Below are positions 1,388 through 18,969 of a stretch of DNA of 19,044 nt, one piece after another. The notes beneath the pieces are model-generated. The model did not search any database. It saw nothing but the letters and a program-made list of their open reading frames with translations, and had not been told where the DNA came from. A program made the translations under genes and the position numbers. The stretch's first letter is position 1, and each line of letters begins with the position of its first letter. Source of the stretch: Candidatus Latescibacterota bacterium (GTDB lineage Bacteria > JAAXHH01 > JABIQT01); NCBI GenBank assembly GCA_018667995.1, contig JABIQT010000642.1, forward strand, positions 1-19,044. Direction: 5' to 3'.

Positions 1388-2641
1388 ATGGGCCCCACCA
1401 ATAGCACCGACAGCACGTTTTCCAGACGAGGTTTCATGAAAGGAGCACTGATAGGAAGCGTTGGTGCTCTGACGGCCGACCCATCTTCCATCGCCTACGC
1501 CATGTTGGCTGGAACCACCCCGGCAGATATACAAGGCATCGGAATCCGAAAGGGACTCGTTAATCTCTCGTCAAACGAGAATCCTCTCGGCCCTTCCGCA
1601 AAAGCCGTAGAAGCAGTGGCACAAAATATGTTCCACGTAAACCGGTACGGTTGGAGCATGACTCCTGTGCCTGAGGACTTACTCAGGAACGCCATAGAAA
1701 AGCACCACAATTTGCCTGAAACTACGGTAACCATGGAGAACTGGCAGGAGGCCTGGAAAGAAAGACGAGTCATGATCAGCGCGGGTTCCGGACCGATCTT
1801 GGAGTTTGCAGCCATAACCGCCATCAAAGATGGAGCGGAGTTGGTGCAAGCGCGTCCTGCCTACTCAGATATAGCCGAAGTATGGATGAAATTCAAGAGA
1901 CGCCAAAATGCTAATGTGAAATTACACCTGGTTCCGCTGGATGATGCCTACCTGCACGACCTGAATGCTATGTACAAGCGCATCAATCAGAATACCACCA
2001 TGGTGGTGATCACGAATCCCAACAACCCCAGTGGCACACTACTGGGCCACGATGAACTGGCCGACTTCGTTCAGTCTGTGCCCAAACACGTTACGGTATT
2101 CATCGATGAGGCCTATATCCACTTCGTTCGAGAACCAGGATATCGGGATGCCGTTCATCTGGCAACTGAACATGATAATGTAATAGTGGCTCGGACCTTT
2201 TCAAAGATCCACGGTTTGGCGGGTATGCGTGTGGGGTACTCAGTAGCTCATCCCGACACTCACCGCAGAATGGACCTCTACCCAGTTCCCGAGCCGTCAG
2301 TGCTCGGATGTTTCGCGGCTGCAGCTGCGCTTGAGGATCACGACCATATTGCGCGGTGTCGTCAGGTTGCCAAAGCAGGAAAAGACTATCTAGGAAAGTC
2401 CTTCGACCGCCTGGGAATTGAATATGTGCCCAGCGACGGTTCCTTCATGCTATTCAACATGAAGCGAGAAGTCGCGACCACTTTTGCCGCACTGGCAGAA
2501 AAGAATGTCGAAATTGCCGATGCAAACTGGTGGGGTGTTAAAGAACACCTGCGGGTGACAGTAGGTACTCCGGCTGAAAACGAAGCATTTATAGGTGCGC
2601 TCGAGCAGGTACTTCAGGAATCACGCCCAGTCGCACAATGA
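1388..2641 (+). CDS. HisC-fold aminotransferase with a Tat signal peptide
   Basis: A fold-type I, PLP-dependent aminotransferase, 417 residues. The N-terminus carries a twin-arginine motif (S12-R13-R14-G-F-M-K18), a short hydrophobic stretch and a possible signal-peptidase site after A36-Y-A38, so export of a folded, PLP-loaded enzyme is predicted. Mature-part motifs are NENPLGPS near 63-70, TNPNNPSGT with N210, D240 and Y243 in IDEAY, Schiff-base lysine K273 in SKIHGLAGMRVGY with PLP-phosphate arginine R281, and the C-terminal substrate-carboxylate arginine R389 in LRVTVGT. All catalytic residues of the histidinol-phosphate aminotransferase family are therefore kept. CGGAG lies seven bases before the ATG. 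No other histidine genes are nearby, so a histidinol-phosphate role is doubtful; an extracytoplasmic amino donor or acceptor is inferred. The last 21 bases overlap the convergent kinase fusion gene. Confidence 0.92.
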   Translation: MGPTNSTDSTFSRRGFMKGALIGSVGALTADPSSIAYAMLAGTTPADIQGIGIRKGLVNLSSNENPLGPSAKAVEAVAQNMFHVNRYGWSMTPVPEDLLRNAIEKHHNLPETTVTMENWQEAWKERRVMISAGSGPILEFAAITAIKDGAELVQARPAYSDIAEVWMKFKRRQNANVKLHLVPLDDAYLHDLNAMYKRINQNTTMVVITNPNNPSGTLLGHDELADFVQSVPKHVTVFIDEAYIHFVREPGYRDAVHLATEHDNVIVARTFSKIHGLAGMRVGYSVAHPDTHRRMDLYPVPEPSVLGCFAAAAALEDHDHIARCRQVAKAGKDYLGKSFDRLGIEYVPSDGSFMLFNMKREVATTFAALAEKNVEIADANWWGVKEHLRVTVGTPAENEAFIGALEQVLQESRPVAQ

Positions 2642-5600
2642 CTCGAGATAAGCAGCGGACAGGTCTCGGAGCCAGCCGTCCAGTTGGGCTGAATCCTTAA
2701 GCTGCTGACCTCGCATCCTTGGCACCGCTATGTACCGACATGACAGTTCCGGAAGGGCCGTCATGTCGCCCCATAGTTTCTCAAACTGTATGACCGGATA
2801 TATATCCTCCTGACCTTTGCCCCATCGCTTCTTAACATCCTTCAGCGTGATATATGTGGGCATCCTGGCGGCCACGGCTCGGACGGATTCCGCCAGTTTG
2901 ATCTCGTCTCCCAAATCGGATCTTCCGAGTCCGAACACGGCGAGCATACGATCAATATCTATCCAAGTAGTGCTCGTATTGTAGTAGGAAAGATCAAATT
3001 CCACTTCCTCCCTGGGAAGTGCAAGACCCTCTATAAGGCGCAGATTCCCATCGACTCTGGCGAGGCCACCTCCCCGGTCATCGATTCGGCGAGTGATGAC
3101 CTCCGTAGTCAGAGCCGCTTCGCTGTTGATGTGCCAGCCAAGTAGTGCAGGGTCCACGTTGGCGCCCAGCGTATCAATGTTATGTACCATCAGATACTTC
3201 AGGCTCGGACGGTCGTCCAGAAGTCTGGCCAGAACACCATTACGTAGAAGGTTCGGAATCTCATACCAGTGCCCCACGGGATGGAGACACTGCCGCGGGA
3301 GATTATCTACGTAGTCAGTGGCCTCACCAGCCGTTTCCGCCCAACTGATCAACGCCGCTCTCAGACTATCCTGGACCTTCTGCGCCTGATCATCGAGTAT
3401 TCGCTGAGGCAGTTCCTCCCATGCGAAACGCAGGTCCCTCGCCGTAGGTATGAGTCGAAGCCCAACCGCCCTACCCGGTGAGAGAATCAGTGGACCTTCA
3501 TACCCGTAATTACCCTCCGACTTCAGGTAGTTCTCGATCGGCTCATGGGTCATGTAACTGGTGGTGATGACATGGGGCAGGAATGTGCCGGAGATTCGGC
3601 TGGTATGCCGACTCTTGGCCAGATGGGCTTCGATAAATGACCGGTGCTTTCCACTTAGATTGCAGAATGGATTCAGCGCCTTTACAACACCTGCCCCCTG
3701 GGTCCACCTGCTACCAGCGCCGCCGGCCATGGAAACAACAGCCAGTTCTCCAGCAGCCAATGCGCGCATCCCATCGTCATAACACCGCTGCGGCAGTTCA
3801 CCTGTGGCGTCATACACATCATTAGGTTCTACGTCTACGATTTGACTGTTCACGGGCAATCTGTTCTGAGCTAAGCCGATACGTCCATTTTTTAAATCGG
3901 AACGTACCTGCTCGTGCTCTACGCGATCAAATCCCAGTCGCGCCAGCAGATCATCGATGCTTTCTGCACCGCCTTCTCCTTCCTCACCATGGGGCAGCAA
4001 ATGGTCGAAGAGCGTCTGTACCATGCCACTCATTTCAGGCTCGGTTCGTGTCGCTTCGCTGAAGCGATCGAGTTCCGCTCTTCGGGTAGCTGATAGATTG
4101 CGCGGCTCAAGGCGAAGCAAATCCGGTACAACGATAGGATAGTATCCCGCGGGCATGAGGGCATCGGGCCCCGTAACCATGGAAGCGCAGGAACCTCGTT
4201 CATTCACTGAAAAGTCATACACCACGGGCTCCATGGCAAATGGAACCGCTGACTCAAAAGCACGCTTTGTCTGGCTCATGATCTCTTGGAGGCGCCCCTG
4301 GGCCTCTGACTTCCGTGCCGGATCGAAGATGAAACCCATTCCGCCGCCGGACATACCTCCCAGCATCCAGAATCCCCAGAATTGCTCGCCAAACTCACTC
4401 TGAACCCGCTGGATAAGCGTTTCTGTATATAGGTTGGATGCCCATGGAATTATGGTCTGTATGGGACCCTCAAAATTCCTCTGCGTCGCGCTTCCGATAC
4501 CTTTAATATCGCCTGACTTCAGCCGCTTGAGAACGTCATTCAACAACTCCATAGCTTGTCTGCGACCGCGCCACTCCGCTTCGGAGCGAAGTAGGTACTT
4601 CTCGGTCACCATTTCCAACACAGGGCCCACGTCCTGAGCCATACCGCCGTGCACAAGTACCAGACTATCCTGCAGCCGCTGGCGCGTCAGTTCGGCCATA
4701 TCGGTCAATATCTTGTGTTCGGGTAGCAACCGGCCTCTGCTAATTCCAAATTCGGGATCGCTCTCGCTGGCAACCACTCCCTGAATCAGCTTGATGCCCG
4801 GCCATACACCGCCCGAATCCTGCCAGCCACCGCCCGAACCAGCCAGCCACTCCCCCAGTATGGCCCGTGCAGCCACCTGACGTCTCTCATCTTCCCTCAG
4901 TTCTCCCGTAAGAGCGTGCGTCTGGCCAGTGGCACGCATGCATACAGAAATAAGTGAGGCAAGGAGATTGGTGGAGACGGCCAGTCGCGATCCCTTAGGG
5001 ATACCGTTGACCCGGCTGACCAATTCAATTCCGTGCCCCGGGCGCCCAAGCCGACCCAGCAGGTCCGACAACGGTTGCTCGGCCCCCTCCATCCCAGGCG
5101 GTACGATTCCGGAGCTGATAATTGCCGCTTTGAGCAACCCCAGATAGTCTTTGGCGAAATCGAATATCTCCGCCAGGGTCGTGATCTCGGCACTTGTGGC
5201 CAGGTCGACGCTCACAAGACGCAGCACCGGCTTATCGATAATGCGAAAGTAGGCCTCTACGGGCGGCCGGGGCAGATTTGGTGCTGCGGTGCCATCCGGA
5301 TCTCGCACGCTCAGATCCACGGAGATGTTAATGACGCGGGCCGCTTCCGGGAAATCCATGCCAAGGAAGAAGATGTCACTCCAACCACTGTGGGTAAGAT
5401 CCATTCGAACGGGCGTCGCTTCACGGAGAATGGGGAAGAGCAGCCTACCTGGCTGTAACTTAAAAAGATCGGGTCTGATTCGGAGCGGTTGATCGGCCGT
5501 ATGGCCGGTACGGAACATCCATTGGTTGCCTCGTACGGACCGCACACTCTTTCGGACCTGATCGGCCAGAATCTGAAAGCCAAGCCGGTGGTATGACTCC

Positions 5601-5950
5601 GCAAGGGCGCTTGAGATGCCGTCATTGGCTCCCTGTTCGCGTTGCGTCTTCTGGAAAATCTCAATCGCCTCCTCGAATCGGCGGTTGAGCAGATTGGTGT
5701 ACCCTTCATAGGGAATCAGCGCCCTTGCAGCCATGCCGGGTTTGGTTGGGAGGTGATATCGGTGAATCGCGTAGAGGAAGAAGAGCGCGCGGACGCGTTC
5801 ATAGAGATTCCCACTGTCGGTCCTGAATCGTTCGAGCGACTCACATTCGTCGAGTAATTCTTGCGATGAGGCACCGCGACAGAATGCGTCGAGCGACTGG
5901 TCACGTATATGGGGATCGGTCGCCGTGATAATCCGAATCAGTGCGCTCAA
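2621..5950 (-). CDS. Fusion of L-fucokinase-like GHMP kinase and UDPGP-type sugar-1-phosphate pyrophosphorylase
   Basis: A 1109-residue protein expected to phosphorylate a sugar at C1 and then join it to a nucleotide. Residues 1-150 are mostly helical and unassigned. Residues about 160-600 resemble the GHMP kinase part of L-fucokinases: [12 protein letters not shown] at 317-328 (motif 2), GGGWQD at 373-378 and the glycine-rich [10 protein letters not shown] at 531-540. Residues about 700-1109 resemble eukaryote-type UTP-glucose-1-phosphate uridylyltransferases: nucleotide loop MAGGAGSRW at 741-749, K757 in VVKALNPF, and [11 protein letters not shown] at 923-933 with the likely metal ligand D926. 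The kinase loop has R322, A324 and T327 where fucokinases usually read GLGTSS. Bacteroides FKP has the opposite order and a different pyrophosphorylase domain. The start is TTG at 5950, overlapping the upstream TGA by four bases (TTGA), with only a weak GGA site, so translational coupling is likely. The sugar and the nucleotide are unknown. Confidence 0.85.
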
Positions 5951-6819
5951 TTTGTATCCAGTTTCCTGGCGGCGCCAAGCTCACGCTGTGCCAGCAATTC
6001 AAGTAGATTAGACAGTACCTCATCACGGTCGCTGCCGCTGAGACTGAGTGCCAGCTGCGCATTCATCAGGCCATATTTTACGCCGATGTCATAGCGCCAG
6101 TCATCCTTCTCCAACGCCAGATATTGCTCGTGCTTTGCAAGCTCGGAACTTGCATCGGATAAGGTGACGCCAATGGGTTGATTGCTCGTCGCCAACAGAC
6201 TTTCCAGAATGTCAAATATCCCGGGAGTTAATACATGGATTCCATATAAACAGAGATAGTATCCAGCCCTTAGTCCTGGAACGATCAGTTGCTGTTCCGC
6301 GACCGTAGGGGAAGGTTTCTCTATAACGGTCTCTATACGATAGAGATCCGGCCTTCCTTGAATCCGCTGGCCGCCGACTGTTCCGAAATAGGGCAGGAGG
6401 CTTTCCCGGGTTGCCTGTACTGCGGAAACGGCACAATTTTCTGCCTCAGCAACCTCCACAACCTGCTGTGCGCACCCCTTCTCATGCCTACTTATAAATA
6501 GATGGTCGCCTACCAGATGCAAAAACGGATCGCCTGAGACAAAATCGCGTGCGCTGTATATGGCATGTCCGTAGCCCAACGGCTCGGACTGGTGAACGAA
6601 CTGAAGCCGTGCGGCGTGTTCACCGGCGACCTCACTGTAGGGCTTCTCATCGCCCGGTTGGACGACCACGCAGATCTCTTCCACACCCGCACGTAACGTC
6701 TCCTCAACGATTATCGCCAGCACTGGTTTTTCTGTTCCATCACGGTCTATCAATGTTTGAAGAGGCAGATTTCGCTGATTGCTGCCCGCTGCTGTGATCA
6801 CGGCTTTATTAATGTTCAC
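5947..6819 (-). CDS. GalU/RmlA-like sugar nucleotidyltransferase
   Basis: A 290-residue protein with the fold of UTP-glucose-1-phosphate uridylyltransferase (GalU) and similar nucleotidyltransferases, which form nucleotide sugars in the cytosol. Visible motifs are [11 protein letters not shown] at 9-19 (nucleotide loop), EKP at 30-32, [10 protein letters not shown] at 78-87 (base and sugar site), GDH at 104-106 (metal site) and IEKP at 166-169. The loop differs from the usual GLGTR or GxGxR: it reads GSNQR, so a glycine is lost while the arginine stays. The start is GTG at 6819, with GGAG six bases upstream. It overlaps the hydrolase gene before it by 11 bases and the kinase fusion after it by 4. 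Acting on the same sugar pathway as the fusion protein is inferred. The altered loop leaves open that it is regulatory or of changed specificity. Confidence 0.85.
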
Positions 6820-8512
6820 TTTGAGCTCCGCGGTAGTCGGCCACTGGTATTACTGGCAGTACCAGGTGCGATGGGTAGATGTCACTGTGGCAAATAGTCT
6901 GCCGGGCTTGGCGCAGCTCGGTATCTTCCCGTGCGGGTTTCCCCGTATTGTGATTGCGGTCAAAACGAGGAAAATTGGACGAAGAGATCTCAACACGAAT
7001 CCGATGTCCACTCCGAAACACATTCCCCGTCACACCTACTTCGATCTCGTATCTGTAAACCTGATCGGGCTCCAGCAGGACAGGATTACATCGGTCCTCA
7101 CGTAAGCGACCACGAATAATGCCATCACACAAATTCATGGCATATCCTGAGGGCGATACATCCACGAGCTTGACTGTCCAATCCGTATCGGGACCATCGG
7201 TGGCGGCATGAAGAATCATTCTGATGGGGCCTGTCACCTCGAGGTCTTCCTCCAAGGGCATGCTGCTATAGCAGAGCACATCACTTCGCATTTCGGCAGG
7301 ACGCTGATCGTGGGGGCCCCAAGGCACCAGATCCGGTGAACAGCAGTTGTTGCCGCCAAGCGTTTGAACCGGGTAGGCCGGATCGAAGATAAACTGGTCA
7401 TTCGGTTCGGATAGAGGTACGTCTGTTGAAAGTACACCGTCACCGAGCAGCGTATTCGCGCTACCGTTCGAGTGCAAATACCATTCCTGCCAATCCGTTC
7501 GCGCTAACGGCCACTCGTACTCGTCGTGCCAGACGTTGGCGCCCATGATGAAGAGTCGAATGGGCGGTTCGTCGGCGATGCCGTTCTCTATGCCCCTCTG
7601 CCAATAGTCGAACCACCGCATCTCCAACGCCTCAAGATCCACGAGAGAACCGTCGCCGAAATCGACATCACCCGTGCGTGTAGAGGCGCTCAAACTGTGA
7701 GGCCAAGGACCCACAATGAGCTTGCTTTGCCGGGCCTCAGGTGTTCGCCCATTCAAACGTAGTCCATTGAAATTGGTGAACGTCTGCGGGGCATAGAGAT
7801 CATACCATCCCCCCATATTCAGTGCCGGCACTGAAATCTCGTCCCATCGTTGCTCATCGTCCATAGCCTGCCAGTATGCGTCATAGGTATCGTGTTCCAT
7901 CCAATCTTTCCAGAACGGCAGGTCGCGGCCAGCCAATTCATCCATTTGTCCGAGCGGCAGACTTCTGAATGCCTCATTCCAGTTATGATAGTCGATATCC
8001 TGACCCGTTCGTGCATTTGTACGCATGCCCCAGGTCATTGCCACATTGAGCTGAAGTGCCCCGCCGGGATAAATGAGACCATCGTAGTAGTCGCAACAAA
8101 TAACTCTGGGTGCTATACACTTCAGATGTTCGCTTCTGAAAGGTGCGCTCTGCCATTGTACGGTGCCGAGATAGGAAGCCCCTGACATTCCTATAGTGCC
8201 GTCGCTCCAGGACTGCAAACCAATCCATTCCTGTGTATCGTAACCGTCGGGCCCTTCCCGGAATGGATAGTAGGTACCGTCCGAATCCCAGCGTCCGCGA
8301 ACGTCCTGAGCCACGCACACATAGCCGTGATTAGCGAGGCGTCGCGCCTTCTCTATCATGCCAGCAATGTTGTTACTGTATGGAGTACGCATCAACACGG
8401 TAGGAAAGGCGCCCGGTGCGTCCGGCCGATATATATCGGACGACAGAGTGACACCGTCCCGCATGGGCACCCTAACGTCCAACTCCATAATTATATCAAA
8501 TGGTTCCGTCAC
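6809..8512 (-). CDS. CocE/NonD family serine hydrolase (X-Pro dipeptidyl-peptidase S15-like)
   Basis: An alpha/beta hydrolase of the cocaine-esterase/X-Pro dipeptidyl-peptidase group, about 567 residues, cleaving an ester or amide of unknown structure. The N-terminal domain shows [15 protein letters not shown], typical of the family. The nucleophile is S113 in GASYLG, with candidate triad partners D238 in GGWYDLY and H272 in GPWPHS. The C-terminal half is the jelly-roll PepX_C-type domain ([12 protein letters not shown], then [11 protein letters not shown]). No signal peptide is seen. Two in-frame GTG codons lie six bases apart. The one at 8512 is preferred because AAAGGG sits six bases before it; the one at 8518 directly abuts that site. 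The stop overlaps the downstream nucleotidyltransferase start, pointing to coupled translation. Cysteine pairs (C140-C141 when counted from 8518) are unusual but not diagnostic. Confidence 0.92.
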
Positions 8513-8563
8513 GTTCACCCCTTTGGCTGACCAATCGACTCTCGTGATCGATCATCCCAGATG

Positions 8564-9124
8564 TTAATCGTCAATAGCTCTAATCACGAAGTCCTCAAAC
8601 CGAATCCAGTGGTCTCCCTCTTCTGGACCGTTGTAGCACTGTATACTGACCTGATCGGTATCGGGTGGCGGAAGCTCTCCCGTAGCGGCTGTCAGAAATG
8701 CAGATTCCCCCTCGGGGCGGTACTGTGCTTCCCATGAGTCTGCCGAAACGATCAGACGAAGTCGCACACTCTGAGATGCCATCGGCGGTTGGCCCGGGAT
8801 GATGTAAATATCCCCATCGATGAGTTCTTTTACCTCTTTGAATACCGGTTTTCCGCCACTGTACCACGTGATCCCAGCCTGTTCATACTGCTGAGTCGGT
8901 ACCGTATGGCTGTAGACGGTGACCTCGACGACAAATCTGCCATGCCTGCGATCCGGGGCCTCCCGGACCAGCGCATTCTTTACGGTATCAGCAAGACCGG
9001 GACGTACACATACTTCCAGGCCCTGGGCAGCCTTACGCCAATCATTGGGCACCTCACGCAGCCAACTCCAACCTTTGTCAAAGTCGCCACTGAAATCATC
9101 CTGAAACACTGTCTTCTCGCCCAT
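8564..9124 (-). CDS. DUF1349 concanavalin A-like domain protein
   Basis: A 186-residue single-domain protein of the DUF1349 family, which has a concanavalin A-like beta-sandwich related to C-terminal domains of some GH43 glycosidases. The hallmark WSWLREVPNDWR at 19-30 is followed by LVREAP at 52-57 and a beta-rich remainder ending IRFEDFVIRAI. No signal peptide or membrane segment is visible, so it should be cytosolic unless exported otherwise. AGGAG lies about seven bases before the ATG. It lies 51 bases before the CocE hydrolase gene in the same direction and probably shares its transcript. The family is often annotated only as hypothetical; carbohydrate binding or a small enzymatic role is possible. 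Confidence 0.88.
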   Translation of the reverse strand: MGEKTVFQDDFSGDFDKGWSWLREVPNDWRKAAQGLEVCVRPGLADTVKNALVREAPDRRHGRFVVEVTVYSHTVPTQQYEQAGITWYSGGKPVFKEVKELIDGDIYIIPGQPPMASQSVRLRLIVSADSWEAQYRPEGESAFLTAATGELPPPDTDQVSIQCYNGPEEGDHWIRFEDFVIRAIDD

Positions 9125-9293
9125 CTCTCATCTCCTGTGAATTAACTCTGAACGATTGCAGGAACATCTATGACACTTCAAGCCGGATTTCCTACCATAC
9201 CATCTAATAAAACGAATGCTGCGATTCAAATGGATTCTCGCCTTGCATGCCACCAACTCAAGAGGCGTATGTACGATAGTTGCCTGACTGCTC

Positions 9294-10106
9294 TTACTCC
9301 TTGTGGCTCCGAATCGCATTGGCCTTTACATCACGCCAAGATGTGCGAAATCCCTCAATATCGGGATGGCTGACGATGTCGTGTATCGTGGCACGCGGTT
9401 GATAGGGCAAGTAGAGTCCGGTATGCCATCCCAGATTTCGGTAGATCATGAAATCGCCTGGTCCCAAATGTACAGGAATGGCTCCCGGCATGCTTCTACA
9501 ATGCTCGAAAAGTCGCTGTTCCGTTTCCTCGTCCGAAATCTCATCCGAAGGATGGCGCAGTGCTGCGTCACCAGTTGACTGTGCCTCGCCCGGCAAGTCT
9601 TCCTGCCGTAGATGGCTTCCCGGGACGAACCAAGTGCAGGAATCAGCGTAGATGGCACAATTGACCTGGTTGTAGAACCTAAGGTCATGCCAGATATCTG
9701 CCATGAAGGACTTCACGCTATCGTCCCGTGCTTCGGGAGGTACTTCGACCACGCCATCACGATGCCATCCGCAATGCCACGGCCGTTCGACCGGCTCGAC
9801 CAGCAATCCCATGATATCGAGATGGGCGTGTGTATGGCCTGGACCAAGCAAACCTGTTACCGCGTCCTTCAATTCGCTGAGTTCAGCGTAGTCCTGAAAA
9901 GGCTGCAGATCGATCCGATCGCCATATTTTTCCAGAGGCTGAATTCTCTGTGTCTGTGGACCATTGAGTTCGTGGGCAAGGTCCCGGGCCTTGTCTGCTT
10001 CGCGCCGCAGGTCACCCAGCAAAGCAGGAGGAATAATCCGCTCAAAAATCAGGAATCCCTGGTCCAGATACTTCTCTACCATGGATGGATGAAAATGAAA
10101 GGGCAT
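9294..10106 (-). CDS. Phytanoyl-CoA dioxygenase (PhyH) family protein
   Basis: A 270-residue non-heme iron, 2-oxoglutarate-dependent oxygenase of the PhyH family, presumably hydroxylating a small molecule in the cytosol. The iron ligands are visible as H115-x-D117 in GWHRDG and the distal H228 in GWHTGLY, and R238 ten residues later fits 2-oxoglutarate binding. The double-stranded beta-helix core is recognisable from the HLDIMG region to the ATIHDIV strand. Length is typical. AGAGG lies seven bases before the ATG at 10106. It is first in the minus-strand run that continues into DUF1349, hydrolase and nucleotidyltransferase genes, 169 bases ahead of the DUF1349 gene. The substrate cannot be read from sequence; phytanoyl-CoA itself is unlikely given the context. 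Confidence 0.92.
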   Translation of the reverse strand: MPFHFHPSMVEKYLDQGFLIFERIIPPALLGDLRREADKARDLAHELNGPQTQRIQPLEKYGDRIDLQPFQDYAELSELKDAVTGLLGPGHTHAHLDIMGLLVEPVERPWHCGWHRDGVVEVPPEARDDSVKSFMADIWHDLRFYNQVNCAIYADSCTWFVPGSHLRQEDLPGEAQSTGDAALRHPSDEISDEETEQRLFEHCRSMPGAIPVHLGPGDFMIYRNLGWHTGLYLPYQPRATIHDIVSHPDIEGFRTSWRDVKANAIRSHKE

Positions 10107-10180
10107 GAAAGTACCTCTGTGTGACGGGCAGGTCCTCTATTGCTTCGGGCCATAGATACCTGTCTAATATCCACGGATGC

Positions 10181-10210
10181 GTTATAAAATCATAGCCAGC
10201 GCCGGATCAA
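10181..10210 (-). promoter_or_regulatory. Candidate sigma70 promoter for the PhyH operon
   Basis: Read on the minus strand, TTGATC (plus coordinates 10205-10210) and TATAAC (10181-10186) are 18 bases apart, matching four and five of six consensus bases. Transcription would start near 10174, about 68 bases before the PhyH ATG. Confidence 0.4.
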
Positions 10211-10530
10211 CAAATGATCGTGATCACTTTCAGGTGCGAATAGCCCGCGACCTGCAGCTGACCACTGCAAGTGTAATATCTGGAGCTGCGAATTGCCAGC
10301 CAGATTGTCAGCCGAAGGTAAAATTGCGCCATCGGTCATCGGTTTTGTATGCACGTGGTCTGCAGAACGGAGATACTTGCGTGTCTATATTCACTCGTGG
10401 CGATATATGGCGTCATGCTCTGAGAGGAATTCAGCAGGGCCTTAAGATGAAGCGATTGAGAGGGAGGTTTGTTCTACGGTCGCTGCAAATCGGGAGGACA
10501 GTACTTGGTGCTGGACAGCCTTTAGCAGCA

Positions 10531-10561
10531 TGCGGAGTGGCCTCGAACTGGCCACCCCGCA
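10531..10561 (-). terminator. Stem-loop downstream of the second aminotransferase
   Basis: Arms of 12 bases (10531-10542 and 10550-10561) pair with one mismatch around a 7-base loop. The stem is GC-rich (TGCGG.GTGGCC) and starts 12 bases past the aminotransferase stop on the minus strand. No T-run follows on either strand, so it is either a factor-dependent terminator or an mRNA 3' end stabiliser. Confidence 0.45.
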
Positions 10562-10572
10562 CGGTTGCCAAA

Positions 10573-11808
10573 TCAAAGCAATTTGGTCAGTACGGTCCGT
10601 AACGTCTTAAGAAATACCTGTGTTTCTTCTTTCGTACCGGCAGACACCCGAATCCAGCCCTTCATATGATCACTGCCTCGGTCGCTGATTCTCACACGCC
10701 GACGCCACATTTCATCCGATACAGTCTCGGAATCATGCTTTACATTCACCATTACGAAGCTACTCTGGCTGCGAATATATTCCAATCCCATTTCATCAAA
10801 TCCATTGTACATCATAGCTTTGGAATCTTTCACCGCCTGCCTGCTTTTCTCAAAATGCGCGGTATCCTCTACCGCAGCGGCCCCTGCCATTTTAGCAATC
10901 ATGCTTGGCGATCCCGTACTGTACATTGACATTCTGTCGAGGATTTTTGATCCTGCTACGGCATAACCCAGGCCCAACCCCTTAATGCCATAAACCTTCG
11001 AAAAGGTCCGTACTACTATCACATTATCATGCTCGAGAGCCAGGGGGATTGCGGACTGATAGTTGGCATCATCCACAAAGTGTACATAGGCCTCGTCTAT
11101 AAGAACGATCACTTCAGGCGGCACCGACTCCACAAACCTGCGCAGCTCGTCGAAGGTGAGCAATGTGCCCGTGGGGTTGTTGGGATTCGTAATAGCAACC
11201 AAGGCGGTCTGAGGCGTAATGGCATCCCGCATGCCGTCCAGATCATGCTTGTAGTCCGACGTCATCGGGACCAAGGTGACCTTGGTTGGAATACCAGCCG
11301 TATTCAAGTCCTCCGCTTCCTCGGCGATGTCCACATAGCCTACCTGAGCCTCAACGACCTCCTTGCCGCCCTGACTGAGATAAGCTATGGCCAGCAATTT
11401 CAGGATATTCCCTGAACCAGGTGCGAAAAAGTAGGGACTATCGTGTTCGCGGCTATCGAAATTCTCCGGCAGCGGAACACCATCAACCTTTGCCAGAGCC
11501 ACTGTGAGTCGCTCCTCGGTATCCAGACTGGAAGGCATGCCCTTCTCATCCAACTCATACCAGCCATAGCGATTCACATTATACACGTACTTATGCACGG
11601 CACCTATGGCCTTCGGTGACGGCCCCATGGGATTCTCGTTCGAGCCCATCCGAACCAGGCCCGGAGGCAGGCCGGCGCTGTCGATATCCTTTACCGAAAG
11701 TGTCTGGGCAGACGACAAACCGGACGTTAGCGTAACGGTGAATAGAGCAACCGTCAGGTACTTGACACAGGCCCTGACATAATTGACGTCATGTATTCGA
11801 TCATTCAT
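10573..11808 (-). CDS. HisC-fold aminotransferase with a Sec-type signal peptide
   Basis: A PLP-dependent fold-type I aminotransferase of 411 residues, closely related to the cytosolic copy at 16885-18018 and more distantly to the Tat copy at 1388-2641. The start ATG at 11808 is preferred because AAGGAG lies eight bases upstream; an in-frame ATG at 11838 has no such site. The N-terminus has a basic region, a hydrophobic core (YLTVALFTVTLTSGL, 17-31) and a likely signal-peptidase I site after S32-S-A34, without a twin arginine. Motifs: SNENPMGPS, TNPNNPTGT, IDEAY, Schiff-base K271 in SKVYGIKGLGLGY, and R387 in WIRVSAG. The arginine that normally binds the PLP phosphate is G279, and a lysine appears at 276. 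The amino substrate is unknown. A cleaved periplasmic enzyme is predicted; an uncleaved membrane anchor is the alternative. Confidence 0.9.
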   Translation of the reverse strand: MNDRIHDVNYVRACVKYLTVALFTVTLTSGLSSAQTLSVKDIDSAGLPPGLVRMGSNENPMGPSPKAIGAVHKYVYNVNRYGWYELDEKGMPSSLDTEERLTVALAKVDGVPLPENFDSREHDSPYFFAPGSGNILKLLAIAYLSQGGKEVVEAQVGYVDIAEEAEDLNTAGIPTKVTLVPMTSDYKHDLDGMRDAITPQTALVAITNPNNPTGTLLTFDELRRFVESVPPEVIVLIDEAYVHFVDDANYQSAIPLALEHDNVIVVRTFSKVYGIKGLGLGYAVAGSKILDRMSMYSTGSPSMIAKMAGAAAVEDTAHFEKSRQAVKDSKAMMYNGFDEMGLEYIRSQSSFVMVNVKHDSETVSDEMWRRRVRISDRGSDHMKGWIRVSAGTKEETQVFLKTLRTVLTKLL

Positions 11809-11884
11809 ACGTGAGCTCCTTGGAGTGAAAGTTGACATGGTAGTGTTGATATTCGTTGCAAACCGTACCTAATAACTGCACCCG

Positions 11885-11913
11885 ATCTTATTGTTGATTA
11901 TCTGTCGGGTAAA
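11885..11913 (-). promoter_or_regulatory. Candidate promoter for the second aminotransferase
   Basis: On the minus strand TTTACC (11908-11913) and TAAGAT (11885-11890) are 17 bases apart, each matching four of six consensus bases. The start would be near 11878, about 70 bases before the ATG at 11808. Modest match. Confidence 0.3.
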
Positions 11914-11977
11914 AAAGGTACCAATTCAGCCACTAAACCATTGGGACGTTGTGAGCCAACATCGCTATATTTTTTCT

Positions 11978-12036
11978 ACGGTAGACTTGTTTTTCCGAGG
12001 GAGTGACACAATATACAATGTCGGAAGATCTACCGT
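11978..12036. repeat. Inverted repeat ACGGTAGA / TCTACCGT
   Basis: ACGGTAGA at 11978-11985 is matched in reverse by TCTACCGT at 12029-12036, 43 bases apart. The left copy is also part of a small palindrome TCTACGGTAGA (11975-11985). A third copy, ACGGTAGATC, is at 13266-13275 beyond the isomerase gene. A regulator site is possible, but chance is not excluded. Confidence 0.25.
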
Positions 12037-12344
12037 CAAATTATATCGCGTATGGCCTGATTGGATCTTCGAATATTGCTAAGTATGATACCAGAAGACC
12101 TGCTCCAACCAGGTCCGCAACGACCATTTCTTCATAGTGCCTTTTATAGAAACTCCGAATGCCCTGGAGGTCTATTCCGCGTGAACAGAGTCTCTCTTCT
12201 GTGTTCTAACTATATTTACCATTTTCAAATCCCTGGAGAGAGGACGTCTACGACTGTTCTGAGCTCGGCGCACTCGTATGGGGGTTCCGCCTCAAAAACA
12301 TACAAAGGAAGATCTGTTGCCGTATGTAACACGGAAACCTGACA

Positions 12345-12373
12345 TTGACATCGGTGAACTCCCAACGAATATT
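12345..12373 (+). promoter_or_regulatory. Candidate promoter for the isomerase-like gene
   Basis: A perfect -35 box TTGACA (12345-12350) is followed after 17 bases by AATATT (12368-12373), four of six -10 matches. The leader would be about 56 bases long. Confidence 0.4.
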
Positions 12374-12435
12374 CAGGCAAGCTCAGAACTCATATAAGGT
12401 GTCCCTGAAGCGTAACATCGAAAAGGAGAGGTAAT

Positions 12436-13194
12436 ATGGGAATCAATCAGTCTGTCTGTTTTGGCTGCTTCACTCGCGGTAACGCCAGCCCGAAGGACGT
12501 GATCACACAAGCATCGCAAATCGGATACAGCTCGGTGGAAATGCTCCCTCAGGAACACTGGAGCCTGGTCCATGACAATGGCATGGAGATCGCAATCATC
12601 GTAGGACATGGATCATTGCCCGACGGTCTCAACAAGAAAGAAAATCACACTCGAATTGAGGATGAACTGCTCGCCAACATCGATCTTGCCGTGGCGAATA
12701 ACATCCCAAGCCTTATTACGTTCTCGGGTAATCGCGAAGGCAAGTCCGATGATGAGGGAAGGGACAACTGTATCGAGGGTTTGCTACGAGTGTCATCTGC
12801 GGCAGAGAAAGCCGGGATTACACTCTGCATGGAACTCTTGAATAGCAAAGTCAACCATCCGGATTACCAGTGCGACTTCACGCCATGGGGCGTGGATGTG
12901 TGCAAGGGCGTCAACTCACCGCGGGTCAAACTGCTCTATGATATTTATCATATGCAGATTATGGAAGGCGACCTGATCCGGAACATCACGGACTACAGTG
13001 ATTACATCGGTCACTATCATACGGCTGGCAATCCAGGGCGCAATGATCTGGATGATGAGCAGGAGATCTACTACCCGCCTGTGATGCGAGCCATCGCTAA
13101 ATCCGGTTATGAAGGCTACGTCGGCCATGAGTTTGTGCCGAAGGCCGATCCTTTAGAGGCGATGAATGCGGCGTATGGAACCTGTGATGTGTAA
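12436..13194 (+). CDS. Hydroxypyruvate isomerase-like / sugar phosphate isomerase-epimerase TIM barrel protein
   Basis: A 252-residue protein of the xylose-isomerase-like TIM barrel family, close in pattern to hydroxypyruvate isomerases, which interconvert keto and aldehyde or epimeric sugars in the cytosol using a divalent metal. Candidate metal ligands are E133 in CMELLNSK, D169 and H172 in LLYDIYHMQ, H195 in GHYHTAGNPGR and E232 in GHEFVP. Length is usual for the family. AAGGAG lies seven bases upstream of the ATG. It stands alone: divergent from the second aminotransferase and separated from the next gene by about 885 bases. Specificity cannot be settled; an epimerase acting on a product of the neighbouring dehydratase is one possibility. 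Confidence 0.9.
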   Translation: MGINQSVCFGCFTRGNASPKDVITQASQIGYSSVEMLPQEHWSLVHDNGMEIAIIVGHGSLPDGLNKKENHTRIEDELLANIDLAVANNIPSLITFSGNREGKSDDEGRDNCIEGLLRVSSAAEKAGITLCMELLNSKVNHPDYQCDFTPWGVDVCKGVNSPRVKLLYDIYHMQIMEGDLIRNITDYSDYIGHYHTAGNPGRNDLDDEQEIYYPPVMRAIAKSGYEGYVGHEFVPKADPLEAMNAAYGTCDV

Positions 13195-14079
13195 TCTAGC
13201 TGGCCAGTCACAACGACTTGGCGACGATAGCTGCTGAACTCTCTCTGTAGGTGGGCACTCGTATTACGGTAGATCGGCGCTCCAGATCTGTGCCATTGAC
13301 AATACGATTCTTGTTACCTGATTGTAGCTGTCAACGGGGCGCTATAGCTGCCGGTTTCGAATCCTGAACGACCATCCTGCCAAACCATGTGTCTTTACAC
13401 CGTTAGTCACGATACTTATTCCCCGCGCCTGAGGTCGCACGCTCACCCGCTAAGTCTGAAATCAGGTGTTCGGACATCTTAGCCTGGCCTCGGACGGCAA
13501 AGGCCTGCCATATGAACCGATAACAGCATTACACATAGTGAAGAAACCGTACCAGCCAGCCTATTTGTATTAGCGCCGCTATGGGTAATTCCCTACAAGG
13601 TCGAAAGCACGAACATCGCGTTCAATTCAATACAAGAGTACCGAATACGGCGAGCCCGTACCGTAATCTGGGTTCCGCAATGACCTATTTCGTAGCTCAA
13701 CCTTTATGAGCTCCTACCATGAGTGGTGCGACGATAAAGGGTAGCCTGGGAGGAACCCGCCACGCCACCCGCTTGCGGCCATCTCGAAATTCAGTAATCA
13801 TATGGACAAGATAGCAATTGAGGAATTGCATCGGACCGCGTGAGACATTAATGTAGGAGATCTTCAATGGACGAAGTAGGGCGGCATAGCATGCTGTTTG
13901 CAGGAGTTTCGTGCGTTTTCTCCTCTTACGCCAGAACTTCGCGAAGACAGGGCCTCAACGATCAAGCATCATACTCCCAGATCATACGTGGCTTGTAATC
14001 ATGATGCCGAAATTGTGAATTAAAAAGGATCGTCCAGTCTTCAATCTGAACGTCGAACTCCAAAAAGGGCCCCGGAACA
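13195..14079. other. Gene-poor stretch between isomerase and sulfatase
   Basis: About 885 bases in which all frames are broken by many stops. No tRNA, rRNA, CRISPR repeat or transposase remnant is recognised. It contains one short frame with a good ribosome binding site (13867-13998) and one copy of the ACGGTAGATC motif. It is otherwise unexplained. Confidence 0.6.
13867..13998 (+). CDS. Possible small ORF (43 aa), unrecognised
   Basis: An ATG-started frame of 43 codons preceded by AGGAG seven bases upstream, ending TAA about 80 bases before the downstream sulfatase gene. The product has a short weakly hydrophobic stretch (MLFAGVSCVFSS, residues 9-20) followed by an arginine-rich part, faintly like a signal or leader peptide. 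No family is recognised. It could be a leader peptide, a small membrane protein or chance. Confidence 0.2.
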   Translation: MDEVGRHSMLFAGVSCVFSSYARTSRRQGLNDQASYSQIIRGL

Positions 14080-15543
14080 ATGAAGAATTCCATGCAACGC
14101 CCCAACATACTCTTCATCATGCCCGACCAGCTGCGCGCCGATTTTTTGTCCTGCTACGGAGCTGAATTCCTGGCCACACCACACATTGATAGTCTGGCTT
14201 CTTCCGGACTTCGATTCGAACGGGCCTATTCCCCATCACCGATCTGCGTCCCAGCCCGAGCCATGCTCATGACTGGTCGAAATGCCATCCAGAATGGTGT
14301 GCTGACCAACGAACACTATCTACGTCCAGACCTCGCGGAGTGTGGCATTCACACGTGGCCTGAACTGATTTCAGATGCTGGATACGCCACCTCAGCCATC
14401 GGCAAGATGCATTTCTACCCTTGGGATATTGACCTCGGATTCCAGACCCGGGTGATCTGTGAAGATAAGCGATGGCTTCTGATTGAAGACGACTACCACG
14501 AGCATCTGAAGGAACACGGCCTGCGCAAGTTGCATGGCAATGAGCACGAAGGTTACTTCGAAAATAAGGGAGCCTTCGTACATAATAACCCAAGGGAGCA
14601 CTCATGGGACCACTATGTGGGCACCGCAGCATGCCATCACATTCGGAATCAGCCGAAGGATCGCCCGTTCGCTATGATGGTGGGATTTCCGGGCCCACAC
14701 TGCCCCTATGATCCAAATGAGGAGGACCTGGCTGGACTTGACGAGAAGGACATGCCGGAGCCTATACCAGCCGTGCCAGACAATGCGCCTGGCCTCCGAG
14801 AGACTAATATCGTAGGAAACCGAATGCCATGGAATGGTGTCGACTACGAAGAATTCACGCCGGCCCAAAAACGAAAGATCCGGCTTCATTACGCGGCTCT
14901 TGTCAAACAGATAGATGATGAAGTTGGTGATATCATCAGTGCCCTGCGCGAGACAGGCCAGTTGGACAACACGTTGATCATATTTTCCAGCGATCACGGT
15001 GACCATCTGGGCGATCATGACCTGATAGGCAAGGCCACCTACTACGAGTCGAGTATACACGTCCCGCTCATCGTTTCTGGTCCCGGAGTACCGCAGGGCG
15101 AATGCTCGTCTGATCTGGTAAGTATAGGAGACATCACGGCGACGATGCTGAAGACCGGAGGCTGCGAGTTACCGGACTATCTGGATGCCCGGCCGCTTCC
15201 TGGGATCGACAACTCGGAGTCACCTTCCAGAGAACAGATTTTCGGGTACCTGGCTAAGGGTTGCATGGTGTTTGACGGTACCTGGAAGCTCTGCCGGTAT
15301 ACTACAGGTGAAAGCCTCTTGTTTAATCTCCAGGAGGACCCCCGGGAGCAGCTCAATCGCATAGACGATCCAACCTGCCAGGACGTCCTACGACGGTTAG
15401 ATGCAGATCTTACGAGCGATATGTTGCGGTCTATCGCCGACAGTAACCAGGAAAAGCTCGTTGCTCATTCGGCACTTTACGATGAAACGGAGTTCGGCCG
15501 TAAAGGATGGAAGCGGCGGTATCCGCAGGACTATGGCGGATAG
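14080..15543 (+). CDS. Sulfatase, formylglycine-dependent (choline-sulfatase/arylsulfatase-like)
   Basis: A complete 487-residue sulfatase that should release sulfate from an imported small molecule or oligosaccharide. RPNILFIMPDQLRAD near the N-terminus carries metal ligand D16. The signature ICVPARAMLMTG places the formylglycine cysteine at C56. Other expected active-site residues are K109 and H111 in GKMH, H207 in GPHCPY, and D305-H306 in SSDHGDHLGDH. There is no signal peptide. The chosen ATG at 14080 has only a weak upstream site (AAAAAGGG); the in-frame ATG at 14092 aligns with the start of the other sulfatase in the window and is an alternative. It is first in a same-strand group with the enolase-superfamily, aminotransferase and aldo/keto reductase genes. 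Only the family, not the substrate, is secure. Confidence 0.93.
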   Translation: MKNSMQRPNILFIMPDQLRADFLSCYGAEFLATPHIDSLASSGLRFERAYSPSPICVPARAMLMTGRNAIQNGVLTNEHYLRPDLAECGIHTWPELISDAGYATSAIGKMHFYPWDIDLGFQTRVICEDKRWLLIEDDYHEHLKEHGLRKLHGNEHEGYFENKGAFVHNNPREHSWDHYVGTAACHHIRNQPKDRPFAMMVGFPGPHCPYDPNEEDLAGLDEKDMPEPIPAVPDNAPGLRETNIVGNRMPWNGVDYEEFTPAQKRKIRLHYAALVKQIDDEVGDIISALRETGQLDNTLIIFSSDHGDHLGDHDLIGKATYYESSIHVPLIVSGPGVPQGECSSDLVSIGDITATMLKTGGCELPDYLDARPLPGIDNSESPSREQIFGYLAKGCMVFDGTWKLCRYTTGESLLFNLQEDPREQLNRIDDPTCQDVLRRLDADLTSDMLRSIADSNQEKLVAHSALYDETEFGRKGWKRRYPQDYGG

Positions 15544-15563
15544 TGGATGAAAGCATCCGCCAT
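15533..15563 (+). terminator. Stem-loop spanning the sulfatase stop codon
   Basis: ATGGCGGAT (15533-15541) pairs perfectly with ATCCGCCAT (15555-15563) over a 13-base loop. A competing hairpin, GTGGATG (15543-15549) with CATCCGC (15554-15560), uses part of the same right arm. No T-run follows, so this may be a weak or factor-dependent end, or an RNA-stability element. Confidence 0.35.
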
Positions 15564-15626
15564 TCGCAGAGACCAAACCCTAAAGCACACGGAACCACAC
15601 CTCTCTTTTGAGAAAGCAGCATCGGT

Positions 15627-16787
15627 ATGAAGATCACACGCCTTGAATCATTTCTCGTAAACGCCGGTCTACGTAATTACCTATTCATCCGGTTGACGAC
15701 CGACGACGGTCTCACCGGAATCGGTGAGGCATCGCTGGAATGGCAGGAAATGACGGTTCAGACGGTGCTCCACGAATGGGTTGAAGATCGTGTTCTCGGA
15801 ACAGATCCCTTCGATCTGGAGGCTGTGATTGGAGGCATGATCCGAGATCAGTACCAGGGCGGCCCGACGGTCATGACCGCCATTAGCGGGGTCGAAATCG
15901 CCTGTTGGGATCTAATTGGGAAGGCCTGTGCACAACCCGTTTACCGGCTTCTGGGCGGTCAATGTCACGATTTTCTTCCGGCATATGCCAATGGCTGGTA
16001 TGGAAACTGCGAAACGCCGAAACAGTATGCCGAAAAAGCCCGAACGGTGGTTGAACGAGGTTATTCAGGGCTCAAATTTGATCCCTTTGGAACGGCCTGG
16101 AAAGAGATGAGCCAGGAACAAATGGACCAGGCCGAAGCTGTGGTGGAAGCAGTTCGATATGCAGTTGGTGATCGCATGGAATTGATGATAGAGGCACATG
16201 GCCGGCTCTCCGTGGCGTGCGCCATCGAGATGGGGCTTCGATTGGTGCCCTACCGTCCCGCATGGTACGAAGAGCCTGTGACGCCAAACAGCCTGGACCT
16301 CTTGGCGGAAGTCAAAGCGGCGCTCCCCTATCCCATAGCCGCAGGTGAGCGGTTGTATACCTTGCCCGACTTCTTCAGGCTGATCCAGATGAGGGCGGCC
16401 GATGTGGTCCAGATGGATCCGGCACACTGCGGCGGATTGCATATTTCTCGCAAAGTCGCAGCCATGGCGGAGGCCCAGGATATGACCGTGTCGCCCCACT
16501 GTTCCATCGGCCCCGTCGCCTTGTGCGCAGCCCTGCACTTTGACTGGGCGACGCCGAACGTCCAGATTCAAGAGAACTTCGCAGATTTTGATGTACCGTG
16601 GCGTGATGATCTCGTGCATGGATGGAACCCGACGGCCAACGGAATGTACATTCTGCCCGACAGACCGGGGTTGGGCCTGGAATTGAACACCGAAGTCTGC
16701 AACGCTCACCCCTATCGTAAGAATAGTTTTCCGTCACTTTGGAACAGCACGTGGCAGACTGATTTCACACAGTCGACGAAGAGCTGA
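15627..16787 (+). CDS. Enolase-superfamily sugar acid dehydratase (galactonate dehydratase-like)
   Basis: A 386-residue mandelate racemase/muconate lactonizing-type enzyme, most like D-galactonate dehydratases, which remove water from an aldonic acid to give a 2-keto-3-deoxy acid. The capping domain is N-terminal and the barrel follows from about residue 115. Spacing matches the galactonate dehydratase active site: metal ligands at E189, E215 (YEEP) and E241 (GERL), catalytic histidines at H191 (EAHGR) and H291 (PHC), and E316 (IQEN). The first metal ligand is glutamate where DgoD has aspartate. The cytosolic location is inferred from lack of a signal. The ribosome site is weak. It follows the sulfatase by 83 bases and precedes the third aminotransferase by 97. 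Another acid sugar is equally possible. Confidence 0.9.
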   Translation: MKITRLESFLVNAGLRNYLFIRLTTDDGLTGIGEASLEWQEMTVQTVLHEWVEDRVLGTDPFDLEAVIGGMIRDQYQGGPTVMTAISGVEIACWDLIGKACAQPVYRLLGGQCHDFLPAYANGWYGNCETPKQYAEKARTVVERGYSGLKFDPFGTAWKEMSQEQMDQAEAVVEAVRYAVGDRMELMIEAHGRLSVACAIEMGLRLVPYRPAWYEEPVTPNSLDLLAEVKAALPYPIAAGERLYTLPDFFRLIQMRAADVVQMDPAHCGGLHISRKVAAMAEAQDMTVSPHCSIGPVALCAALHFDWATPNVQIQENFADFDVPWRDDLVHGWNPTANGMYILPDRPGLGLELNTEVCNAHPYRKNSFPSLWNSTWQTDFTQSTKS

Positions 16788-16812
16788 TGTCGTACCTAGC
16801 TGGTCAATTTGG

Positions 16813-16828
16813 GAATCTCCTGAGATTC
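16813..16828 (+). repeat. Short hairpin upstream of the third aminotransferase
   Basis: GAATCTC (16813-16819) is followed after two bases by its exact reverse complement GAGATTC (16822-16828). In RNA it would form six pairs with a four-base loop. It sits 25 bases after the dehydratase stop. Confidence 0.35.
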
Positions 16829-16841
16829 TACTTCAGACTAC

Positions 16842-16868
16842 AAACAGGGACGAGAACCTGCCCTGTTT
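16842..16868 (+). terminator. Second hairpin upstream of the third aminotransferase
   Basis: AAACAGGG (16842-16849) pairs exactly with CCCTGTTT (16861-16868) around an 11-base loop. Only three T residues end the right arm. It may be a weak terminator of the dehydratase gene or a leader structure of the aminotransferase, whose ATG is 16 bases downstream. Confidence 0.35.
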
Positions 16869-16884
16869 CAACTACAGAGAAGAC

Positions 16885-18018
16885 ATGGTAGAACACATCC
16901 ACAGTGCGGGCCTACCGCCCGGGCTCCTTCGAATGATGGACAACGAGAACCCGCTGGGGCCGTCCCCAAAGGCGCTTGACGCCATACAGACCCATATGCA
17001 GTCACTGAATCGCTATGAGTGGTTCGATTCCGATTCAGATGGAAATTTGACGCACCTGCAGCCGGCCGAAATGCTGATCCGGGCACTTGCCGATGAGAAT
17101 GGAATCAGTCTACCGGAACCATTCGATCTTGAGAAACCACATCCCATCTTTCTTGCTCCGGGGGTAGACCAGATCCTGAAACTATTGGCTGTCGCCTATC
17201 TCTCTCCCGGGCATGGTGAACTCATTGAGGCTGAAGTGACCTACGGCGAAATATCTGAGAAAGCCAGAGAGCTCGATAGTGCAGGAATAGACACGAACGT
17301 CGTTCAGGTGCCCATGACGGCCGACCACAAACATGACCTCGATGCCATGCTGGAAGCGATTACGCCTCGCACGCGACTGATGGTGGTCACAAACCCCAAC
17401 AACCCTACCGGTAGCCTTTTGACGTATGAAGCCATATCGGCTTTCGTCAATTCCGTGCCAGGTGAAATCGTCGTCGTGATCGATGAGGCTTATTTCCACT
17501 TCGTCAAGCAACCGAACTATCAGTCGGCAATGTCCCTGGCACTATCCCGTGATAACGTGGTCGTGGTCAGAACATTTGCGAAGGTCTATGGGATCAGGGG
17601 TGTCATGGTAGGCTATGCCGTGAGCAGTCAGGCCATCAAAGAGAAACTGATGCTTTACAACAGTGGCCGGACGAGCCCTCTATCCTTGATGGCTGCGTTG
17701 GCCGCCCTCGGCGACCACGACCATGTACAGCGGAGCAGGGATACTGTGATCAGCTCGCGTGAGAGGCTGTTTCACGAATTCGAAGCGATGAATCTGGAAT
17801 ACATACCCAGTGAGACGAACTTCGTTCAGGTCAACGTCGAACGAGACACAGAAGAGGTCCGCCTGGCGCTTTGGGACAAGCGGATTGCCGTCTCGCCAAG
17901 GGGCAGTCAAGTTATGAAAGGCTGGATCCGTATTTCAGTGGGTACCATGAATGAAATCGAGACATTCCTCTCAGCCTTCAAAGAAGTACTACCCACGATC
18001 TCGCGACTCGGGGAATGA
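16885..18018 (+). CDS. HisC-fold aminotransferase, no signal peptide (cytosolic)
   Basis: A 377-residue PLP-dependent aminotransferase, closely similar to the Sec-signal copy: both read HSAGLPPGL or DSAGLPPGL at the mature start and share RGS..MKGWIR near the C-terminus. It begins almost exactly where the mature part of that copy begins, so no export signal is present. Motifs: DNENPLGPS, TNPNNPTGS, IDEAY, Schiff-base K233 in AKVYGIRGVMVGY, and R349 in WIRISVG. The usual serine before the lysine is A232, and the usual PLP-phosphate arginine is M241; an arginine appears three residues earlier at R238. The ribosome site (GAGAAGAC) is weak. The aldo/keto reductase follows after 15 bases, so the two are probably co-translated. 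The acceptor may be a keto product of the neighbouring pathway, which is inference. Confidence 0.92.
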   Translation: MVEHIHSAGLPPGLLRMMDNENPLGPSPKALDAIQTHMQSLNRYEWFDSDSDGNLTHLQPAEMLIRALADENGISLPEPFDLEKPHPIFLAPGVDQILKLLAVAYLSPGHGELIEAEVTYGEISEKARELDSAGIDTNVVQVPMTADHKHDLDAMLEAITPRTRLMVVTNPNNPTGSLLTYEAISAFVNSVPGEIVVVIDEAYFHFVKQPNYQSAMSLALSRDNVVVVRTFAKVYGIRGVMVGYAVSSQAIKEKLMLYNSGRTSPLSLMAALAALGDHDHVQRSRDTVISSRERLFHEFEAMNLEYIPSETNFVQVNVERDTEEVRLALWDKRIAVSPRGSQVMKGWIRISVGTMNEIETFLSAFKEVLPTISRLGE

Positions 18019-18033
18019 TGGCGGAGAAAACGC

Positions 18034-18969
18034 ATGCAATACCGTAATCTCGGGAATAGTGGCCTTAAGGTATCATCGATCAGTATGGGTACGGTTTTTC
18101 GGGGCAATCCCGATGAACAGACCTGCAAGGCGACTATCTCGCGCGCAATCGAGCTCGGAGTCAGTCTGATTGATTGTGCGAACACGTACCAGAATGGCCA
18201 TTCAGAGCGAATGGTTGGGGACGTGGTAGGCCAACATTCGCGAGATGAGTTGGTGGTAACTACGAAAGTATGTGAACCGGTCGGAGACGGTCCCAATGAC
18301 CAGGGCCTTTCGCGAGGGCATATTCTTCGTGAGATTGAAAGCAGCCTGTCTCGCCTACAAATGGATTATGTGGATATCTACCTGCTCCACCATTATGACC
18401 CCGCGGTGCCGATAGAGGAGACCCTCGGAGCATTGGACAATCTTGTGCAGCGAGGTCTCGTTCGGTACATAGGATGCTGCAATTTTGCCGCATGGCAGGT
18501 CTGCAAGGCCAATGGACTCGGTGAGAGGAACGGCATTGTATCATTCAACTGTGTACAAAATCCCTACAATCTGATCAGTCGGGAACTCGAAAACGAGATG
18601 ATGCCTTTCTGTCGCTCGGAAGGTTTGGGCGTCATGGTGTACAGTCCGATCGCCCTTGGCTTACTTTCAGGTAAGTACCGGGCCAACACAAACCTACCGG
18701 CGGGTTCATACTGGCACAGCAGACAGGACAAGCTGAAGAAGAGAGGGACCCCCGCTGTGGAAAAGATCGTCGAAGCCATCGGCCGAATTGGCGCGTCCCA
18801 CGGCAAATCGTCTGCTCAGACGGCCATCGCCTGGCTACTGTCACACCCAGAGGTATCAACTGTTATAACGGGTCCGGACACGATCGCTGAGCTCGAGGAG
18901 AATCTCGGCGGTAGCGATTGGGAGCTCTCGCCCGCGGAAAGGCTTGAACTGGATGAACTCTCGAGTTGA
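18034..18969 (+). CDS. Aldo/keto reductase
   Basis: A 311-residue NAD(P)H-dependent oxidoreductase of the aldo/keto reductase superfamily, reducing a carbonyl or oxidising an alcohol in the cytosol. The catalytic tetrad is complete: D47 and Y52 in IDCANTY, K78 in TTKV, and H119 in YLLHHYD. Cofactor-binding parts include YSPIALGLLSGKY and, near the C-terminus, VITGPDTIAELEENLG, which fit the usual nucleotide site. GGAG lies seven bases before the ATG. It is 15 bases after the third aminotransferase and probably in its operon. Similar proteins act as sugar dehydrogenases or general reductases; specificity is not visible. Confidence 0.94.
   Translation: MQYRNLGNSGLKVSSISMGTVFRGNPDEQTCKATISRAIELGVSLIDCANTYQNGHSERMVGDVVGQHSRDELVVTTKVCEPVGDGPNDQGLSRGHILREIESSLSRLQMDYVDIYLLHHYDPAVPIEETLGALDNLVQRGLVRYIGCCNFAAWQVCKANGLGERNGIVSFNCVQNPYNLISRELENEMMPFCRSEGLGVMVYSPIALGLLSGKYRANTNLPAGSYWHSRQDKLKKRGTPAVEKIVEAIGRIGASHGKSSAQTAIAWLLSHPEVSTVITGPDTIAELEENLGGSDWELSPAERLELDELSS

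Follow-up and report, generated by a model that had tools for sequence, protein, structure and literature searches.

Three HisC-like aminotransferases with different predicted locations on one Candidatus Latescibacterota contig: members of an order-wide family expansion

Why should a single short stretch of bacterial DNA encode three related PLP-dependent aminotransferases that seem to be destined for different sides of the membrane? This question is raised by contig JABIQT010000642.1 (C147) of a Candidatus Latescibacterota bacterium, which was analyzed over its entire length of 19,044 bases (hereafter the window) and belongs to a 6.06 Mb metagenome-assembled genome (MAG). An earlier sequence-only reading had listed three open reading frames for aminotransferases of the HisC fold, and all of them were found: P1 (1388..2641, + strand), P2 (10573..11808, − strand) and P3 (16885..18018, + strand), each encoding a class I/II PLP aminotransferase with HisC fold that matches Pfam Aminotran_1_2 (2e-40 to 3e-41). 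As had likewise been stated, no further histidine-synthesis gene was found in the window.

The predicted locations of the three proteins derive from their N-termini. P1 begins with the motif SRRGFMK, followed by a Gly/Ala-rich h-region. Since an RR-x-F-type motif occupies the same place in 49 of the 53 family members with intact N-termini (from five genomes), its occurrence in P1 is not due to chance, and the Tat signal proposed for this protein is confirmed at the level of the motif. P2 starts at 11808, with an AAGGAG ribosome site just upstream, and its leader YVRACVKYLTVALFTVTLTSGLSSA-Q contains no twin arginine; the segment YVRACVK is found where relatives align with SRRGFMK. A longer start at 11838, in which a twin arginine might have been overlooked, was rejected as it contains none either. 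Over 20 residues, the leader comprises one Gly and seven L/I/V/F residues, whereas the RR-bearing members average 3.5 and 4.5, respectively; by overall hydrophobicity it is not distinguishable from the RR-bearing (Tat) leaders. Of the Sec-like signal that had been claimed for P2, the hydrophobic leader without RR thus stands, while its Sec-like nature is, from sequence features, plausible but not proven, and cleavage after SSA is possible. P3 carries no leader at all, just as had been proposed. This is not an annotation error, as its start lies only a few residues 5' of the conserved GLPPG core and a 65%-identical ortholog (G013:C131), which also lacks a signal, has a stop codon just before its start. 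A signal hidden 5' of P3 was rejected on the same ground and because the frame toward the preceding gene offers no start codon. A signal is also lacking in family member G002 C1:1954k, a case distinct from that of P3. Each of the 15 order genomes searched for TatC contains it. Three different predicted locations for P1, P2 and P3 are supported.

The three genes are far from being the only family members in this organism. The genome contains at least 15 family loci with an N-terminus, a Tat (RR) motif being present in 13; C-terminal family fragments occur in addition at contig ends, and the copy number is approximate as it comes from searches of a fragmented, 85% complete MAG. All 15 relatives searched, which belong to other families of the same order, yielded about 5-17 matches per genome. 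Outside the order, 272 sampled genomes were searched with the family alignment and the PRK09105 model, scoring the best six candidates per genome, and at most two significant matches per genome were obtained among the genomes listed; the scoring of six candidates has no effect on counts as low as these. Because the genome has at least 15 copies, three of them within 17 kb are unremarkable, and P1-P3 are not a special trio but a chance sample of the order-wide expansion. The constellation had been described as unusual, which is true for bacteria at large, where at most two matches per genome occur, but not for this order, in which copies predicted to be exported are standard. The expansion itself is genuine and stands out among bacteria in general; the kind of enzyme is already known.

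Phylogenetic analysis was based on an 85-row tree, calculated by a quick method with SH-aLRT support, and on a second, careful tree of 33 rows. In the former, the copies of the order form a single clade, with Tat-type HisC-like proteins of Bacteroidota, Verrucomicrobiota and Pseudomonadota as its sister; housekeeping HisC proteins, including the order's own HisC encoded beside hisG, fall outside this expansion in a separate clade. The tree does not group P1-P3 with ordinary HisC encoded next to his genes, the placement that would have spoken against the earlier reading. In the 33-row tree, P1 pairs at 100/98 with its ortholog from another family of the order (G002 C3; 58-60% identity), while P2, P3 and G013:C131 form a clade at 98/95 within a 14-row clade supported at 100/100. 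Thus, P2 and P3 are sisters and P1 belongs to a different subfamily; no P2 ortholog was found in the genomes searched. All remaining members of the 14-row clade with intact N-termini carry RR and, given this nesting, descent of P2 and P3 from a Tat-bearing ancestor would by parsimony be the simplest history.

We therefore regard it as quite likely that P1-P3 fall into two subfamilies of a HisC-like aminotransferase family which expanded throughout the order and had a Tat-exported ancestor, the signal of which is kept in P1, lost in P3 and decayed in P2. In this scenario, the proteins would belong to fold type I, subfamily I-beta, and the ancestral form would have been exported by Tat in folded state with PLP already bound, working in the periplasm in the manner of the Pseudomonas periplasmic transaminase PtaA. 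P1 would retain this state. P3 would be cytosolic, its signal having disappeared in an ancestor common to the P3 lineage and a genus from a different family, and decay of the twin-arginine motif would have left P2 with a leader of Sec-like or membrane-retained type. While sequence, phylogeny, copy number, TatC, motif tally and active-site residues were observed, actual export, the loading of PLP prior to it, transaminase activity and the route of P2 are what we infer here.

Folding of PtaA, together with PLP, takes place in the cytosol, and Tat then carries the folded enzyme across the membrane (PMC6206403); besides this enzyme, little else was found in the literature on periplasmic or exported aminotransferases. 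P1-P3 align across nearly the whole PtaA model (NF051461) with 164-170 bits, but remain far under its equivalog cut-off of 500 bits. A Tat signal on a HisC-like aminotransferase is shared with PtaA, as judged by motif, by P1 and 48 other members, but not by P2 and P3. PtaA acts on the glutamyl side chain of pyoverdine and thus tailors a siderophore, while no pyoverdine genes were seen in the window, and a single PtaA contrasts with the many copies per genome in this order. By analogy, a PtaA-like working model of folding with PLP and subsequent Tat export offers the best reading for P1.

Active-site residues were assigned according to those described for subfamily I-beta, in which an Arg at position Lys+8 bridges the PLP phosphate and is strictly conserved (PMC4703992). 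The catalytic Lys, the pyridine Asp, the Asn, the Tyr and the Arg for the substrate carboxylate of this I-beta set are kept in all three proteins, and conservation of the C-terminal Arg argues for putative amino donors or acceptors with an acid group. In P1, catalytic Lys273, PLP-phosphate Arg281 and carboxylate Arg389 are all present. P2 has Gly279 in place of the PLP-phosphate Arg, with Lys276 three residues earlier, and P3, in which Lys233 and Arg349 are kept, carries Val94, Ala232 and Met241 at positions of the PLP-phosphate pocket that are occupied in relatives by Ser, Ser and Arg, respectively. The two Ser positions, which are Ser in nearly all other members, are presumably both contacts of the PLP phosphate in this fold. 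Since the strictly conserved PLP-phosphate Arg is missing, activity of P2 and P3 is uncertain; a Lys or Arg at Lys+5, present in both, might possibly substitute for it. Replacement of this Arg also occurs elsewhere in the family, by Lys in C907 and by Gly or Ala in several genera of a clade that includes the second G000 C749 copy. Tandem pairs of Tat-type aminotransferases are found at this G000 C749 locus (L149) and at L171.

The exchange of Arg for Gly in P2 and of Ser, Ser and Arg for Val, Ala and Met in P3 could also be taken to mean that both are degenerating copies under relaxed selection, with PLP-phosphate ligands gone and signals decaying. We consider this unlikely, as the changes of P3 are common to its 65%-identical ortholog, with Val, Ala and Leu at the respective positions, and the catalytic Lys, Asp, Asn, Tyr and carboxylate Arg are retained in P2 and P3. 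Moreover, the reading frames are open, and the predicted model of P3 has a mean pLDDT of 91, with HisC-type structures as its best Foldseek matches.

A further explanation had been put forward by the sequence-only reading, namely that related compounds are transaminated inside and outside the cytosol by a single pathway; the window would then be its gene cluster. Three paralogs with different predicted locations within 17 kb and the sister relationship of P2 and P3 would fit such a pathway, but P1 is of another subfamily, and P1 and P2 lie on opposite strands (+ and −, respectively) with unrelated genes between them. P3 is preceded by two co-directional genes for a sulfatase (14080-15543, + strand) and an MR/MLE enolase-superfamily enzyme (15627-16787, + strand), and an aldo-keto reductase gene (18034..18969, + strand) begins 15 bases 3' of it; none of these was seen beside the P3 ortholog. 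Neither this ortholog (G013 C131) nor that of P1 (G002 C3) has any neighbor gene in common with the window, and a conserved partner gene for the window copies was not found. The trio as a conserved cluster was rejected on these grounds. Hence, a pathway of this kind is improbable. What survives of the claim is that PLP chemistry probably occurs within the cytosol as well as beyond the membrane, but not a single pathway or unit.

Two other parts of the window drew attention. A 1,109-aa protein (2621-5950, − strand), adjoined by a nucleotidyltransferase gene (5947-6819), resembles fucokinase/GDP-fucose pyrophosphorylase (PRK13412) only weakly and in part, and no relative of it was found among the neighbor genes compared. 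Between a gene for a TIM-barrel isomerase-like protein and the sulfatase gene, about 880 bases (13195-14079) are without recognisable gene.

Conserved gene neighborhoods exist for some other family members. In four genomes, a GMC oxidoreductase gene is adjacent to that of a Tat-type aminotransferase (L162, L172, L188 and G011 C116 = L180), with Gluconate_2-dh3, bearing a Tat motif, and a cytochrome c also nearby at L188. A run of DUF5916, Tat-type aminotransferase and HEAT/TPR genes recurs in two families of the order (L148, L161), and the DUF5916 and HEAT/TPR proteins have apparent leaders. These neighbors point to a location outside the cytosol. Speculatively, the GMC pairing might reflect a route in which an alcohol is oxidized to a ketone that is then aminated, or the reverse. 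In several genera (L163, L173, L183, L195), the order RelA/SpoT-like, Tat-type aminotransferase, GH39-like and family 2 glycosyltransferase is conserved, some of these genes not being seen at every locus.

Comparison with named families places P1-P3 apart from HisC, with which they share the fold and most active-site residues. Against the HisC model TIGR01141 they score 198-219 bits, below the curated equivalog cut-off of 276.55, and most family members differ from HisC also by their export signals. A gene on contig C315, in contrast, lies directly after hisG and exceeds this cut-off with 322 bits; the same hisG-HisC order occurs in two related genomes, and the C315 gene is the true HisC of the organism. 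HisC identity of P1-P3 was therefore rejected. The best NCBIfam match of P1 (230 bits) and P2 (207 bits) is PRK09105 (NF006580), the cut-off of which (444 bits) is passed by no protein of the order genomes searched; the match of P1 starts at model position 4 and thus includes the Tat motif. Among named subfamilies, PRK09105 and HisC match best, followed by PtaA, all three far below cut-off. That P1-P3 are all ordinary histidinol-phosphate aminotransferases, as the HisC fold and the Foldseek ranking of the P3 model might suggest, is exceedingly improbable in view of their separate grouping and low scores, the distinct gene beside hisG and the export signals of most relatives.

Under the preferred reading of an order-wide expansion with a Tat-exported ancestor, the order probably performs much of such transamination chemistry outside the cytosol. 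A more far-reaching proposal, to which we attach only tentative belief, is that the order maintains a large and diversified periplasmic transamination by at least ten Tat-exported PLP enzymes, some of them coupled to periplasmic GMC dehydrogenases, and that the P3 branch has become cytosolic again, its PLP-phosphate pocket having been rebuilt without the arginine. If about 5-17 enzymes per genome are exported in this order, extracytosolic amine/keto chemistry can be a major metabolic activity. This raises the questions of which amino donor is used in the periplasm, how PLP stays on an exported enzyme and what becomes of a Tat-exported PLP enzyme once its twin arginine is lost. Separately, a Tat-motif member at L031 (= G013:C232; 5076-6308), the gene of which adjoins that of an ECF-type sigma factor, has Arg in place of the catalytic Lys (TFSR vs TFSK) and is probably not a normal transaminase.
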